From Alphaproteobacteria bacterium (GTDB lineage: Bacteria > Pseudomonadota > Alphaproteobacteria > Rhizobiales > Xanthobacteraceae), in contig JBBCGH010000001.1 in NCBI GenBank assembly GCA_037200445.1, positions 2,232,001 to 2,296,000 of the forward strand: a stretch of 64,000 bases of DNA. Reading direction: 5' to 3'. Under the pieces are notes generated by a model. That model did not search any database, was not told the DNA's origin, and was given only the letters and a program-made list of their open reading frames with translations. A program made the translations under genes and the position numbers. Below, piece after piece: positions 2,119-46,100 of this stretch (position 1 is its first letter; every line of letters starts with the position of its first letter).

Positions 2119-3819
2119 GTGAGTGTCACGACCGCCCCCTCGTATGCAGGCGTTGCGCGGACGGTCTCGCGCGAGATCTGGGTCGCGCGCATCGGCGTCC
2201 TGCTACTGGTCGCGTGGTTGTTGCTTTCCATCGCCCTGCCGCTCTGGACGCTTTTGTCGAAAAGCTTCCAGAACGCCAACGGCGAATTCATCGGGCTCAC
2301 CAATTACATCCGCTATTTCTCCACGCCGAGCCTGTTCAACTCGATCTTCAACTCGATCTGGGTCGCGCTCGTTACCACCGTGATCGTGATCCCGCTCGCG
2401 TTCGGCTATGCCTATGCGCTGACCCGCAGCCAGATGCGCTTCAAGGGCCTGTTCTACGCGGCCGCGATGCTGCCGCTGTTCGCGCCGTCGCTGCTGTCGG
2501 CAATCTCGCTCATCTACCTGTTCGGCAATCAGGGCCTGCTCAAGGGGCTGTTGTTCGGCGGGGACATCTATGGCGCCGACGGCATCATCGTCGCGCAGGT
2601 GTTCTACTGCTTCCCGCATGCGCTGATCATCGCGGTGACGGCGCTCGCGCTCGCCGACGCGCGGCTCTACGAGGTTGCCGATGCACTGGGCACGAAGAAG
2701 TCGCGGATCTTCAGAACCGTGACACTTCCGGGGGCGAAGTTCGGGCTGATCAACGCGGCTTTCGTGGTGTTCACGCTGGTCGTCACGGACTTCGGCATCG
2801 CCAAGGTGATCGGCGGACAGTTCAACGTGCTCGCAACAGACGCCTACAAGCAGGTGGTCGGCCAGCAGAATTTCGAGATGGGCGCGGTAGTCGGCATGGT
2901 GCTGCTGGCGCCCGCGATACTGGCCTTCGTGATCGACCGCATGGTGCAAAGCCGCCAGGTCGCGCTCCTGTCTGCCCGCGCCGTGCCGCTCGAGCCCAAG
3001 CCCAATTCGATGCGCGACACGTGGCTCCTGATCTACTGCCTCGTCGTCGCGGCAATTCTGATCGGCGTGCTTGGCACCGCGGTCTGGGCCTCGTTCATTA
3101 CCTATTGGCCGTACAATCTCACGCCGACGCTGAACAACTACAACTTCACCAACTTCGATCCGGGCGGCTGGGACCCGTATTTCACCTCGCTTGCGATGGC
3201 GGCCTGCGCGGCGGTGTTCGGCACCGCGATCGTGTTCACCGGCGCCTATCTGGTCGAGAAGACCAAGGTGATGCCGGGGGCGCGGCTGCTCGCGCATCTG
3301 CTCGCGATGCTGCCGATGGCGGTGCCGGGCCTCGTGCTCGGTCTCGGCTATGTGTTCTTCGTGAACGCGAAGTGGAACCCGCTCGGATTCCTCTATGGGA
3401 CGCTCGCCGTGCTGGTGATCAACTCGGTTGCGCATTTCTACACGGTGGCGCACATCACCTCGCTCACCGCGCTGAAGCAGATCGATCCGGAGTTCGAGTC
3501 GGTGTCGGCTTCGCTGAAGGTGCCGTTCTGGCGCACCTTTGCGCGCGTCACCGTCCCGATCTGCTGGCCCTCGATCCTCGACGTCGCGGTCTACATTTTC
3601 GTCAACGCGCTCACCACCGTGTCGGCCGTGATCTTCCTCTACGGCCCGAATACCAAGCTTGCCGCGATCGCGATCGTGCACATGGACGAAATGGGCGCTT
3701 CCGCTGCGGCCGCCGGCATGGCGACGATGATCGTCGCGACCGCGCTTGGCGCAAAGCTGTTGCAGGTTCTGCTCGACCGGGTGTTGTTCAAGCGCCTGCA
3801 GGCGTGGCGCAAGAGGTGA
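2119..3819 (+). CDS. ABC transporter permease, fused two-domain PhnU2 type
   Basis: The 566-residue protein contains two tandem binding-protein-dependent permease domains. The first EAA-like loop is around ADALGTKKSRIFRTVTLPG; the second is around SASLKVPFWRTFARVTVP. Each half has about six hydrophobic helices. This length and fusion are typical of the putative 2-aminoethylphosphonate permease family and of FbpB-like iron permeases. The start is GTG, 4 nt after the ATPase stop. It forms the inner-membrane channel for the transporter encoded by the two preceding genes. The fused form means no second permease gene is required. Confidence 0.87.
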   Translation: MSVTTAPSYAGVARTVSREIWVARIGVLLLVAWLLLSIALPLWTLLSKSFQNANGEFIGLTNYIRYFSTPSLFNSIFNSIWVALVTTVIVIPLAFGYAYALTRSQMRFKGLFYAAAMLPLFAPSLLSAISLIYLFGNQGLLKGLLFGGDIYGADGIIVAQVFYCFPHALIIAVTALALADARLYEVADALGTKKSRIFRTVTLPGAKFGLINAAFVVFTLVVTDFGIAKVIGGQFNVLATDAYKQVVGQQNFEMGAVVGMVLLAPAILAFVIDRMVQSRQVALLSARAVPLEPKPNSMRDTWLLIYCLVVAAILIGVLGTAVWASFITYWPYNLTPTLNNYNFTNFDPGGWDPYFTSLAMAACAAVFGTAIVFTGAYLVEKTKVMPGARLLAHLLAMLPMAVPGLVLGLGYVFFVNAKWNPLGFLYGTLAVLVINSVAHFYTVAHITSLTALKQIDPEFESVSASLKVPFWRTFARVTVPICWPSILDVAVYIFVNALTTVSAVIFLYGPNTKLAAIAIVHMDEMGASAAAAGMATMIVATALGAKLLQVLLDRVLFKRLQAWRKR

Positions 3820-3843
3820 GTATGCCGAGTCCGCTGGCTCCGA

Positions 3844-3956
3844 CTGTCATCCCGGCCGAGCGCAGCGAGAGCCGGGACCCATCTCTCCGCGAAAATCGAG
3901 CGCGGTGGTACATGGGTCCCGGATCGGCTCGCTCCGCTCGCTGTCCGGGATGACAG
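3844..3956. repeat. Intergenic inverted-repeat element, GTCATCCCGG family (copy a)
   Basis: The outer ends CTGTCATCCCGG (3844-3855) and CCGGGATGACAG (3945-3956) are exact reverse complements. Internal GGGACCCAT and ATGGGTCCCGG segments also pair. Related elements occur at 4288, 11975, 43337 and 45941. It lies immediately upstream of the GIY-YIG gene. The size and structure resemble REP/BIME-type or MITE-like interspersed repeats common in Hyphomicrobiales genomes. Confidence 0.85.
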
Positions 3957-3970
3957 ATGAGTATGTGGCG

Positions 3971-4429
3971 ATGCCCTACTACCTCTATATCCTTGCAAGC
4001 GGTCGGCGCGGGACGCTCTACATCGGCGTGACAAACGACCTCGTGCGCCGTGTTTACGAACACCGGACTGACGCCATTCCAGGCTTCACAAAAAAGTACA
4101 AGGTTCATCGCCTCGTCTATTATGAAGCGCACGACGACATTAGCGCGGCCATTGCCCAAGAGAAACGAATGAAGCGCTGCTCTCGCGCATGGAAAACCGA
4201 GCTGATCGAGAAACAGAATGAAGATTGGCACGATCTGTGGCCGACGCTGGGAGCTTGGGCCGATGAGCGGCGGAAGTGCCGCATTCTCGACTGTCATCCC
4301 GGCCGATCGCGTAGCGCGAGAGCCGGTACCCATGTATCACCGCGTTCTGCGATTGCGGAAACATGGGTCCCGAGTCTCCCCCGGCTCGCGCTTCGCTTGG
4401 CCGGGGTCGCTCGGGATGACAGTCGGTGA
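3971..4429 (+). CDS. Small GIY-YIG nuclease family protein enclosed by interspersed repeats
   Basis: A single GIY-YIG domain fills about residues 1-100. The GIY position is YLYIL near residues 4-8, LYIG is at 16-19, Arg26 lies in LVRRVYEH, and the catalytic Glu candidate is Glu52 in LVYYEAH. These small YhbQ-like proteins are putative DNA endonucleases and usually end near residue 100. Here the frame continues about 46 more codons through the repeat at 4288-4425, producing a low-complexity tail (HPGRSRSARAG) that is probably non-functional. ATG 3971 matches the family start; ATG 3950 is in frame. It sits between the permease and the PbfA-like gene but has no obvious metabolic link to them, so it looks like an inserted unit. 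Confidence 0.8.
   Translation: MPYYLYILASGRRGTLYIGVTNDLVRRVYEHRTDAIPGFTKKYKVHRLVYYEAHDDISAAIAQEKRMKRCSRAWKTELIEKQNEDWHDLWPTLGAWADERRKCRILDCHPGRSRSARAGTHVSPRSAIAETWVPSLPRLALRLAGVARDDSR
4288..4425. repeat. Intergenic inverted-repeat element, GTCATCCCGG family (copy b), overlapping GIY-YIG 3' end
   Basis: CGACTGTCATCCCG at the left end pairs with CGGGATGACAGTCG at the right end. Internal ACCCATG and CATGGGTCC segments pair too. It is the partner of the element at 3844-3956, so the GIY-YIG gene is bracketed on both sides. It supplies the last codons and the stop of that gene and ends 19 nt before the next start at 4445. Confidence 0.85.
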
Positions 4430-4444
4430 AACGGGCGACGGCCT

Positions 4445-5809
4445 GTGAACAAATCTCCGCCCAACGAATCCGAAAGCGACACCAACCTGTCGCCGCAGCG
4501 GCGCGCCTGGGCCGAGAAGAATCTCGACCCGGAGGCGCAGACGCTTCTCGCCGAGGACGAGAAGTACTTCCTGCGCCAGTCGGTCTCGACGCCGTGCCTC
4601 AACGCCATCGCCAAGGCGGAAGGCATCTGGATCGAGGACACCGCCGGGCGCCGCACCATGGATTTCCACGGCAACAACGTCCATCACATCGGCTACGGCC
4701 ACCCGCGCCTGAAGAAGGCGATTGCCGAGCAGATGGATGCGCTGCCGTTCGCGCCGCGCCGCTACACCTGCGGGCCGGCGGTGGCGCTCGCCGCAAAGCT
4801 TGCCGAGATCGCGCCGGGCAATCTGTCCAAGGTACTGTTCACCACCGGCGGCTCCGACGCCGTCGAGGTCGCGATCAAGATCGCGCGTGCCGCAACCGGC
4901 CGTTACAAGACGCTTTCGTTTTGGGATGCATTCCACGGCGCGGGTTTCGGCGCTTCGGCTGTCGGAGGCGAAGCGCTGTTCCGCTCCGGTGGCGTGGGAC
5001 CGCTGATGCCGGGCGCCGAGCACGTCGCGCCCTATGCGTCGTACCGTTGCCCCTATGGCACCTCGACCATCGGAGCGAGCGCGGACGCCTGTGCGCGCAT
5101 GATCGAATTTGTGCTGGAGCGGGAAGGCGACATCGCGGCGTTCATTGCCGAGCCGATGCGCGCGGTGCCGCACATTCCGCCACCCGGTTTCTGGCGCCGC
5201 GTGCGCGCGGCCTGCGACCGGCACGGAACGCTGTTGATCTTCGACGAGATACCCACCGGCCTCGGCAAGACCGGCAAGATGTTTGCCTGCCAGCATGACG
5301 GCGTCGTGCCGGACCTGCTGGTGCTCGGTAAAGGTTTGGGCGGCGGCATCGTGCCGATCGCCGCGGTGATCGCGCGGCCGGAGCTGGATGTGGCCGCCGC
5401 CTATGCGTTCGGCCACTACACGCATGAGAAGAACCCGGTGACGACACGCGCGGCGCTCACCACCATCGAGATCATCGAGGACGAAGACCTGGTCGAAAAC
5501 GCGGCGCGCGTGGGCGCTGCCGCGATGGCGCGGCTGCATGAGATGAAATCGAAGCACGCGCTGATCGGCGATGTGCGCGGGCTCGGCTTCCTGATGGGCA
5601 TCGAACTCGTCACGTCGCGCGTGAGTAAGGCGCCCGCCAAGGATGCGGCCGAGGCCGTGATGTATCGCGCGCTGGAAAAAGGCCTCTCGTTCAAGACCAC
5701 GTTCGGCAATGTGCTCACCCTGACGCCGCCGCTCACCGTGACCGAGCCCGAGATGATGCGCGCGCTCGACATCCTGAGCGAGGCGATCGGCGAGGTGGCG
5801 AAGCGGTGA
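4445..5809 (+). CDS. Class III PLP enzyme, PbfA-like (probable (R)-1-hydroxy-2-aminoethylphosphonate ammonia-lyase)
   Basis: The 454-residue protein has the class III aminotransferase fold. It shows the TGGSDAVEVAIKIAR phosphate-cup segment, the PLP aspartate in IFDEIPTGLGKTG, and the Schiff-base lysine in VLGKGLGGGIVP. The N-terminal region (YFLRQSVSTPCLNAI, DFHGNNVHHIGYGHP) resembles the ammonia-/phospho-lyase branch that includes PbfA and ethanolamine-phosphate phospho-lyase rather than classical transaminases. PbfA turns (R)-1-hydroxy-AEP into phosphonoacetaldehyde plus ammonia. The link to the upstream AEP-type transporter supports this, but a transaminase or a lyase for another amino alcohol phosphate remains possible. 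The start is GTG. The stop overlaps the next start by 4 nt (GTGA). Confidence 0.72.
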   Translation: MNKSPPNESESDTNLSPQRRAWAEKNLDPEAQTLLAEDEKYFLRQSVSTPCLNAIAKAEGIWIEDTAGRRTMDFHGNNVHHIGYGHPRLKKAIAEQMDALPFAPRRYTCGPAVALAAKLAEIAPGNLSKVLFTTGGSDAVEVAIKIARAATGRYKTLSFWDAFHGAGFGASAVGGEALFRSGGVGPLMPGAEHVAPYASYRCPYGTSTIGASADACARMIEFVLEREGDIAAFIAEPMRAVPHIPPPGFWRRVRAACDRHGTLLIFDEIPTGLGKTGKMFACQHDGVVPDLLVLGKGLGGGIVPIAAVIARPELDVAAAYAFGHYTHEKNPVTTRAALTTIEIIEDEDLVENAARVGAAAMARLHEMKSKHALIGDVRGLGFLMGIELVTSRVSKAPAKDAAEAVMYRALEKGLSFKTTFGNVLTLTPPLTVTEPEMMRALDILSEAIGEVAKR

Positions 5810-11974: not shown

Positions 11975-12130
11975 GGCCAAACGGCCACCCGGATCGGCGC
12001 TTCGCGCCGTCCGAGTGCAAGCTCCGCCCGCGCGAGCCGGGAACCATCTCGCCATTGTAGCGGAGGGCGGAGCGTGGCGCAGCATGGGTCCCGGCTCTCG
12101 CCCGCTGCGCGGGCTTCGGCCGGGATGACA
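11975..12130. repeat. Intergenic inverted-repeat element, GTCATCCCGG family (copy c)
   Basis: CTGTCATCCCGGCC at the left end pairs with GGCCGGGATGACA at the right. The first about 72 bp are nearly the same as the element at 45941-46100, with about five differences. It lies just upstream of arsS and downstream of the FeeM-like gene, both on the minus strand. Confidence 0.85.
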
Positions 12131-38733: not shown

Positions 38734-38874
38734 CGGTCATTCCGGGGCGCCGCGAAGCGGCGGGCCCGGAATCCATAAACACCGTGGTTGCAGTTCAGTC
38801 TCACCGGTGCGACATCGATAATATTGTGGTTATGGATTCCGGGCTCGCGCCTTCGGCGCTCCCCGGAATGACCG
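38734..38874. repeat. Intergenic inverted-repeat element, GGTCATTCCGGGG family
   Basis: CGGTCATTCCGGGG near 38734 pairs with CCCCGGAATGACCG ending 38874. Inner GGAATCCATAA and TTATGGATTCC segments pair as well, giving a 141-bp element. The copy lies between the HerA-like stop and the M20 peptidase start. It is a different family from the GTCATCCCGG elements, although the termini are similar. Confidence 0.85.
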
Positions 38875-45940: not shown

Positions 45941-46100
45941 CTGTCATCCCGGCCAAGCGACCACCCGGATCGGCGCTCCGCGCCGTCCGAGTGCAGGCTC
46001 CGCCCGCGCGAGCCGGGACCCATAAAACACAGGCCTGTCCATGTTACACGATGGGTCCCGGGTCTCCTGACGCCTGCGGCGTCAGTCGCCCGGGATGACA
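45941..46100. repeat. Intergenic inverted-repeat element, GTCATCCCGG family (copy e)
   Basis: CTGTCATCCCGGCC at 45941 pairs with GCCCGGGATGACA ending 46100. The first about 72 bp match the element at 11975 with about five differences, which defines a subfamily. It lies between convergent genes (DUF3297 and SOD) and starts 1 nt after the DUF3297 stop. Confidence 0.85.

Follow-up and report, generated by a model that had tools for sequence, protein, structure and literature searches.

Why does a small nuclease gene lie between two copies of one repeat, in the middle of what looks like a contiguous operon? The locus stands within a window of 64,000 nucleotides (the whole stretch of DNA analysed here) from an alphaproteobacterial genome of the Xanthobacteraceae (G000), which is a single contig of 5.84 Mb. 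The reading that we favour, and judge moderately probable on the analysis as a whole, is that of a compact mobile REP–nuclease–REP cassette, whose nuclease would serve REPs of the CGTC kind as RAYTs serve GTAG REPs, and from an unrelated enzyme family.

A GIY-YIG gene between inverted repeat dimers

The best reading of the gene runs from ATG at 3971 to TGA at 4427–4429 and encodes 152 residues. GIY-YIG is the sole Pfam match of its product (PF01541, 48.4 bits against a cut-off of 22.6, E = 1.1e-12); NCBIfam and PADLOC searches gave no match. The two repeats that bracket it share 23-bp blocks in direct orientation (96% and 87% identity) and have inverted ends in each (I9, 12/12; I4, 24 nt at 83%), and each dimer has a predicted DNA fold of about −45 kcal/mol (Table 1). 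The first-pass annotation, which placed a GIY-YIG gene between two copies of one inverted-end repeat, is thus borne out. Its proposal that the unit interrupts an operon is supported by a genome of another family (G005), where both neighbour genes are nearly adjacent in the sequence as judged by eye.

Table 1. Features of the window locus
Feature	Position	Strand	Evidence
Upstream inverted dimer, CGTC-type REPs	3843..3957		REP finder, DNA fold −45.5 kcal/mol, inverted ends I9, dispersed copies
REP1	3846-3881	+	Upstream dimer, called by REP finder
REP2	3913-3954	-	Upstream dimer, called by REP finder
Stand-alone GIY-YIG nuclease gene, 152 aa	3971..4429	+	PF01541 E 1.1e-12, dN/dS, conserved residues
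Downstream inverted dimer, same REP	about 4290..4424		By eye; translated as residues 107-152
REP3	about 4293-4332	+	Downstream dimer, degenerate, by eye
REP4	about 4364-4420	-	Downstream dimer, degenerate, by eye
Permease-like gene, upstream neighbour in interrupted operon	2119..3819	+	ORF; function label by inspection
Aminotransferase-like gene, downstream neighbour in interrupted operon	4445..5809	+	ORF; function label by inspection

CGTC REPs are defined by a (C/T)GTC tag, a stem of 8–9 bp, a loop of 4–5 bp, a CCA tail and an arrangement in inverted dimers (Di Nocera 2013, PMC3733652), and that survey places them in five phyla and in species of all alphaproteobacterial orders. The window hairpin carries the marks of this class: a TGTC tag, a stem of about 8 bp, a CCA tail, inverted dimers and many copies, with two of the four REPs degenerate. 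In tag, stem length of 8–9 bp, tail and dimeric arrangement the window repeats are like the class as the survey describes it, which includes Neisseria dRS3 and R. conorii RPE-6/RPE-4 (PMC3733652). They differ in the loop, which is longer in the window copies than the 4–5 bp of the described families and reaches about 14 nt in REP1, outside the definition; many other flanking REPs have loops of 4–5, and other loop lengths are noted in the survey for Bradyrhizobium CGTC-1 (PMC3733652). All Rfam matches to this region fell far below the gathering scores.

The elements follow the order REP(+) REP(−) gene REP(+) REP(−) over about 575 bp. With a dimer on each side, the outer REP pair has its tags outward and the inner pair its tags inward; this nested order recurs in one Azospirillum copy and in one copy of genome G128. 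The repeat is dispersed in its own genome, with at least 65 blastn rows over 5.84 Mb (some places matching on both strands), 40 of the 144 candidates having been scored. More CGTC-type REPs lie within the window at 12085–12129, 38736–38872 and 46052–46099, and at one of these sites they form an inverted dimer of subtype GTCATTCCGGG.

Nuclease genes are flanked by CGTC-type REPs well beyond the window

The association of the nuclease with CGTC REPs is general. Flanking was scored in two samples, the named sample (the best 80 of 189 loci encoding a relative, ranked by protein similarity, repeats not considered) and the class sample (80 of 102 nuclease rows from 142 genomes of the class, leaving out six own-genome rows, one contig-end row and 15 rows with E >1e-20). 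An inverted-flank score of at least 20 was reached by 40/80 named loci, against 1/1986 positions and 4/403 gene boundaries; a score of at least 16 was reached by 38/80 class-sample loci, against 9/2000 positions and 0/58 gene boundaries. A structural REP finder that uses the GTC tag, an 8-bp stem and CCA, and nothing else, found 48/80 and 27/80 loci to have CGTC-type REPs on either side at a distance of up to 250 bp, against 5/2396 and 2/2400 positions. In every flanking test the nuclease stood above the controls by one to two orders of magnitude, so that flanking is commoner than at random positions or gene boundaries, as the proposal of the first-pass annotation requires; among the scored named loci the association extends outside Hyphomicrobiales. 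Of 32 records found in a plasmid collection, 10 were scored; eight of these loci reached 16 or more and two were unflanked. The inverted-flank test counted the window copy itself as flanked (24.0); the REP finder, which called REP1 and REP2 and neither of the others, did not.

Together the two samples, 11 own-genus loci and 10 loci of the plasmid collection make 181 loci, or 177 unique copies once four pairs of duplicates are collapsed, one pair spanning the two samples. By either criterion 124/177 are flanked. Copies with no flanking repeats, which the first-pass annotation took to speak against its proposal, do occur: 53/177 are unflanked, among them own-genome copy L001 (score 11.0, no REP). 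On the nuclease tree the flanked state clusters only weakly, with 38 changes against a shuffled mean of 45.7 and minimum of 40.

A record of N. gonorrhoeae holds a gene copy, with a putative start codon, flanked by the CGTC-1 type, which the 2013 survey equates with Neisseria dRS3 (PMC3733652). Several loci have features of their own. In a Desulfobulbus MAG (L101, 6348–7711) an array of REP matches, mostly in one orientation and spaced by 90–140 bp, lies just 3′ of the GIY-YIG gene, and on a Planktothrix plasmid (L263) a GIY-YIG copy without flanking REPs lies between an MmeI-type restriction gene and drmA. Two own-genome cassettes with a related REP type, one of whose nucleases is broken, lie about 2.2 kb apart (L222, G000:C1:893000-901000). 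A stretch of about 160 bp in G128 (L223, 13977–14136) has over 30 matches within its own genome and may be a REP dimer or a small mobile element of another kind.

Nucleases and REP subtypes are paired

Where a genome holds several copies, the flanks of one copy can be compared with those of another. The two flanks of the same copy beat all cross pairings within the genome in 45/71 copies (15.2 by chance), and were best in 34/38 of those in multi-copy genomes whose own score was at least 16. By this measure each nuclease has its own REP subtype. The five nuclease copies of congener G002, for example, have differing flanking subtypes.

REP type also varies with the nuclease. On the nuclease tree, REP loop class needed 35 changes across 132 loci, whereas none of 200 shuffles needed fewer than 51. 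REP similarity followed nuclease identity with a Mantel r of 0.28 over 83 loci, the highest value among 999 permutations being 0.13; duplicates were removed from both sets, and both comparisons ignore species kinship. Within the genus, subtype GTCATCGCCCGCGAAGGCGGGCGATCCAGTA (up to three mismatches) occurs 52 times in G000, 22 times in G002 and not at all in G001, the last two being draft genomes. Its nuclease is present in G000 and G002, and none was found in the draft of G001, in which the four small GIY-YIG copies detected have other flanks. Of a second subtype there are 79 copies in G002, which also has the cognate nuclease, 33 in G000 and three in G001, again with G001 and G002 as drafts; in G000 a search for a nuclease cognate to these 33 copies found none.

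These comparisons bear on an account by hitchhiking, in which REPs gather near gene ends and dispensable small intergenic genes come to be flanked by chance or by REP–REP recombination. The 2013 survey does find REPs to be mostly intergenic and near 3′ ends (PMC3733652). Against it stand the gene-boundary controls (ORFs of 100 aa or more, not other short gene families), which gave 4/403 and 0/58, and the subtypes matched copy by copy and co-varying with the nuclease tree. Hitchhiking is already disfavoured, and we regard it as very improbable.

The REP tags may mark the ends of a unit

Among nearest REP pairs, 49/75 have their tags outward (p = 2e-13 against one quarter). In a boundary set of 55 loci, picked because their outward-facing REPs form a pair of equal length, the unit measures a median of 397 bp from tag to tag, and similarity between flanks drops to about 0.3–0.4 within 3–4 nt outside the tag. 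Since flank resemblance stops a few bases beyond the tags, the alignments suggest that the tags are the ends of the unit and that the enzyme recognizes the hairpin, acting at the tag or close to it. Gene-less REP dimers would be non-autonomous partners of such a unit, because they share its ends.

Whole units are present at some sites and absent from related ones

In Azospirillum lipoferum 4B a unit lies between sufB and sufC. It is absent from that site in A. ramasamyi, A. oryzae and B510, where the finder detects no REP, and eleven further Azospirillum records among the matches listed (16 matched; three inspected) hold operon pieces consistent with absence. With the matched records of its relatives empty or consistent with absence, gain of the unit in A. 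lipoferum would be the simplest reading. In Shinella, WSC3-e and HZN7 are filled and S. sumterensis and H4-D48 empty and REP-free by the finder, and own-genome copy L007 is absent from G001, at a site without a REP. Sphingobium TomMM7A and TYG73 are both filled, the TYG73 gene having a 1-bp deletion; the TYG72 site shows no hairpin by eye, and the TYG64 and TYG74 sites, without the gene, have one hairpin made of the left half of one REP and the right half of the other (seen by eye; the finder is silent). This hairpin could be either a scar left by deletion from one REP stem to the other or an insertion target. Genome G128 is filled where G162 lacks the gene; the two are highly diverged, and degenerate REP-like sequence is visible by eye at the G162 site. 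No target-site duplication was recognized in the filled/empty comparisons, where the spacers are too diverged, and in the search with L259, 39 non-source records (among the best 40 of 186) match one flank only.

Homing endonucleases occur among GIY-YIG proteins, and the same sites can be read with the REPs as target and not as cargo: a free-standing endonuclease would cut REP dimers or hairpins, and repair would copy the gene in. The composite hairpin of TYG64 and TYG74 and the REP-like remnant in G162, both judged by eye, speak for such homing. The empty sites of three Azospirillum, two Shinella and G001 are, however, REP-free by the finder, TYG72 shows no hairpin by eye, and both flanks of a copy are matched in subtype to each other and not to the flanks of other copies. 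We consider homing unlikely. If the REPs do travel with the gene as a cassette, frequent movement is disfavoured, because three congeners have conserved copies at a shared locus.

Genomes with REPs tend to carry the nuclease

Genome-wide REP content was assessed with a covariance model built first from 29-mers, after which the REPs were realigned with that model (MAFFT of mixed REP lengths puts stems out of register); the first model was searched over 74 picked loci, most of them with REPs. With 51 candidates scored per genome, the nuclease occurs in 27/30 REP-positive and 22/112 REP-negative genomes of the class; of the 142, three have REPs alone and 90 have neither (OR 37, p = 1e-12). The co-occurrence is partly confounded with genome size, and a check restricted to the 42 genomes of at least 2.5 Mb gave p = 0.002. 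The model misses REP classes, since 16/28 nuclease copies in REP-negative genomes are still flanked. In G098 (at least 30 REP matches) and G024 (one) the sole GIY-YIG protein is UvrC-sized and the small nuclease was not found, and in G086 (at least 34 REP matches) there are three other small GIY-YIG matches, all unflanked.

RAYTs, each paired with a REP class, served as the control: they occur in 7/30 REP-positive and 24/112 REP-negative genomes (OR 1.1, p = 0.81). A RAYT was rejected as mobiliser of these REPs, given this lack of association across the 142 genomes and a single weak PF01797 match in the own genome (23.8 bits), with none at E ≤ 1e-5.

The gene is under purifying selection and its repeat-encoded tail is incidental

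Among the three orthologues at the window locus (3971–4270 of the window gene aligned), dN is 0.09–0.14; two of their three pairwise comparisons have saturated dS, and the remaining one gives a dN/dS of 0.12. The ratio is 0.08 between own-genome copy L003 and L213, and 0.09 in a Shinella pair. By these ratios the nuclease gene is under purifying selection. The conserved Tyr, Tyr, Arg, His and Glu of GIY-YIG proteins have a catalytic role; the window nuclease keeps all five, and flanked copies keep them in 122/123, 124/127, 126/127, 126/127 and 127/127 cases. An in-frame stop falls within the matched region in 20/181 copies, 17 of them flanked.

Selection on the gene would also be expected if the nuclease served the host, resolving hairpins or cruciforms or processing REP transcripts, and selection simply kept the gene beside its substrate with no mobilization at all. 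Conservation at one locus in three congeners fits this, and so does a distant relative, E. coli YhbQ, which is annotated as a nuclease of the DNA damage response. By sequence, the nearest relatives with solved structures are stand-alone GIY-YIG proteins of the UPF0213/YhbQ kind (PDB 1zg2, E = 8.8e-7; 1ywl, E = 5.9e-4). YhbQ itself differs from the nuclease group, being only about 25% identical and lacking flanking REPs, and was set aside as a relevant relative. Host service also leaves unexplained why REPs stand on both sides, why their tags point outward and why whole units are present or absent, and we hold it to be distinctly improbable.

The first-pass annotation further stressed a C-terminus encoded by the downstream repeat. 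Residues 107–152 of the window protein, 46 in all, are indeed encoded by the repeat, although the stop codon lies just outside it rather than being supplied by it. In two congeners (G001 and G002) the whole cassette occupies the corresponding site, and the gene there is open and ends before the 3′ repeat. Because these orthologues end there, the tail is incidental read-through after loss of the native stop, and neither a functional domain nor a significant feature of the system.

Discussion

In the mobile cassette that we favour, a CGTC-type REP, a stand-alone GIY-YIG nuclease gene and an inverted CGTC-type REP form a unit of about 400 bp from tag to tag, usually with tags outward. The nuclease would recognize the hairpin of its cognate REP, probably in extruded or single-stranded form, and would nick or cut at or near the GTC tag. 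This would allow low-rate copying or movement of the REP–gene–REP unit and, in trans, of gene-less REP dimers. The analysis shows the association itself, the cognate pairing, the co-occurrence across genomes, the presence and absence of whole units and the selection on the gene; hairpin recognition, cleavage, copying and action in trans are steps that we infer.

The closest known parallel is the REPtron, a RAYT gene between GTAG REPs (PMC3733652; PMC8049555). As these papers describe it, the REPtron is like the window unit in having a small enzyme gene between inverted REPs, in the gene-less REPs and dimers dispersed through the same genome and in long retention of the gene, seen for RAYTs in vertical inheritance and here in dN/dS and one shared locus. 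RAYTs are reported to be single-copy and vertically inherited (PMC3733652; PMC8049555), whereas genomes with the GIY-YIG nuclease may hold several copies, some of them broken. The enzyme of the REPtron is an HUH tyrosine transposase (PF01797) and not a GIY-YIG protein, and its REPs have the tag GTAG, unlike the GTC tag of the CGTC REPs here. As enzyme family and REP tag differ, the GIY-YIG system is RAYT-like without being a member of the RAYTs. The first-pass suggestion of a REP/RAYT-like partnership, with a GIY-YIG enzyme in the place of the transposase, fits the flanking, pairing and co-occurrence; the incidental C-terminus and the 53/177 unflanked copies do not.

The CGTC REPs, in the account of the 2013 survey, are apparently without a dedicated transposase, no associated transposase gene being reported (PMC3733652), whereas here a GIY-YIG gene is associated with them. 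Among the papers listed by our literature search, which took in few subscription papers and no bioRxiv preprints, none was seen to connect GIY-YIG proteins to CGTC REPs. We can guess why such a link may have been missed. The nuclease genes are short (about 100 aa), 3/32 plasmid-collection records are annotated as excinuclease ABC subunit C, and the intragenic count of the 2013 survey excluded hypothetical proteins of less than 120 aa (PMC3733652).

Whether the CGTC REPs at large, including Neisseria dRS3 and possibly the Rickettsia RPEs, are mobilized by a stand-alone GIY-YIG nuclease travelling between two cognate REPs, as a second and independently evolved partnership of REP and enzyme, we regard as an evenly balanced proposition. 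Because the pairing of nuclease and hairpin recurs in many bacteria, the nuclease is a candidate for the missing enzyme behind the spread of a widespread bacterial repeat class. With a specific candidate enzyme and a cognate substrate for each copy, the question of the CGTC REP transposase becomes testable at the bench. If the enzyme does move REPs, their spread would have at least two separate origins, in enzymes that are unrelated to each other.
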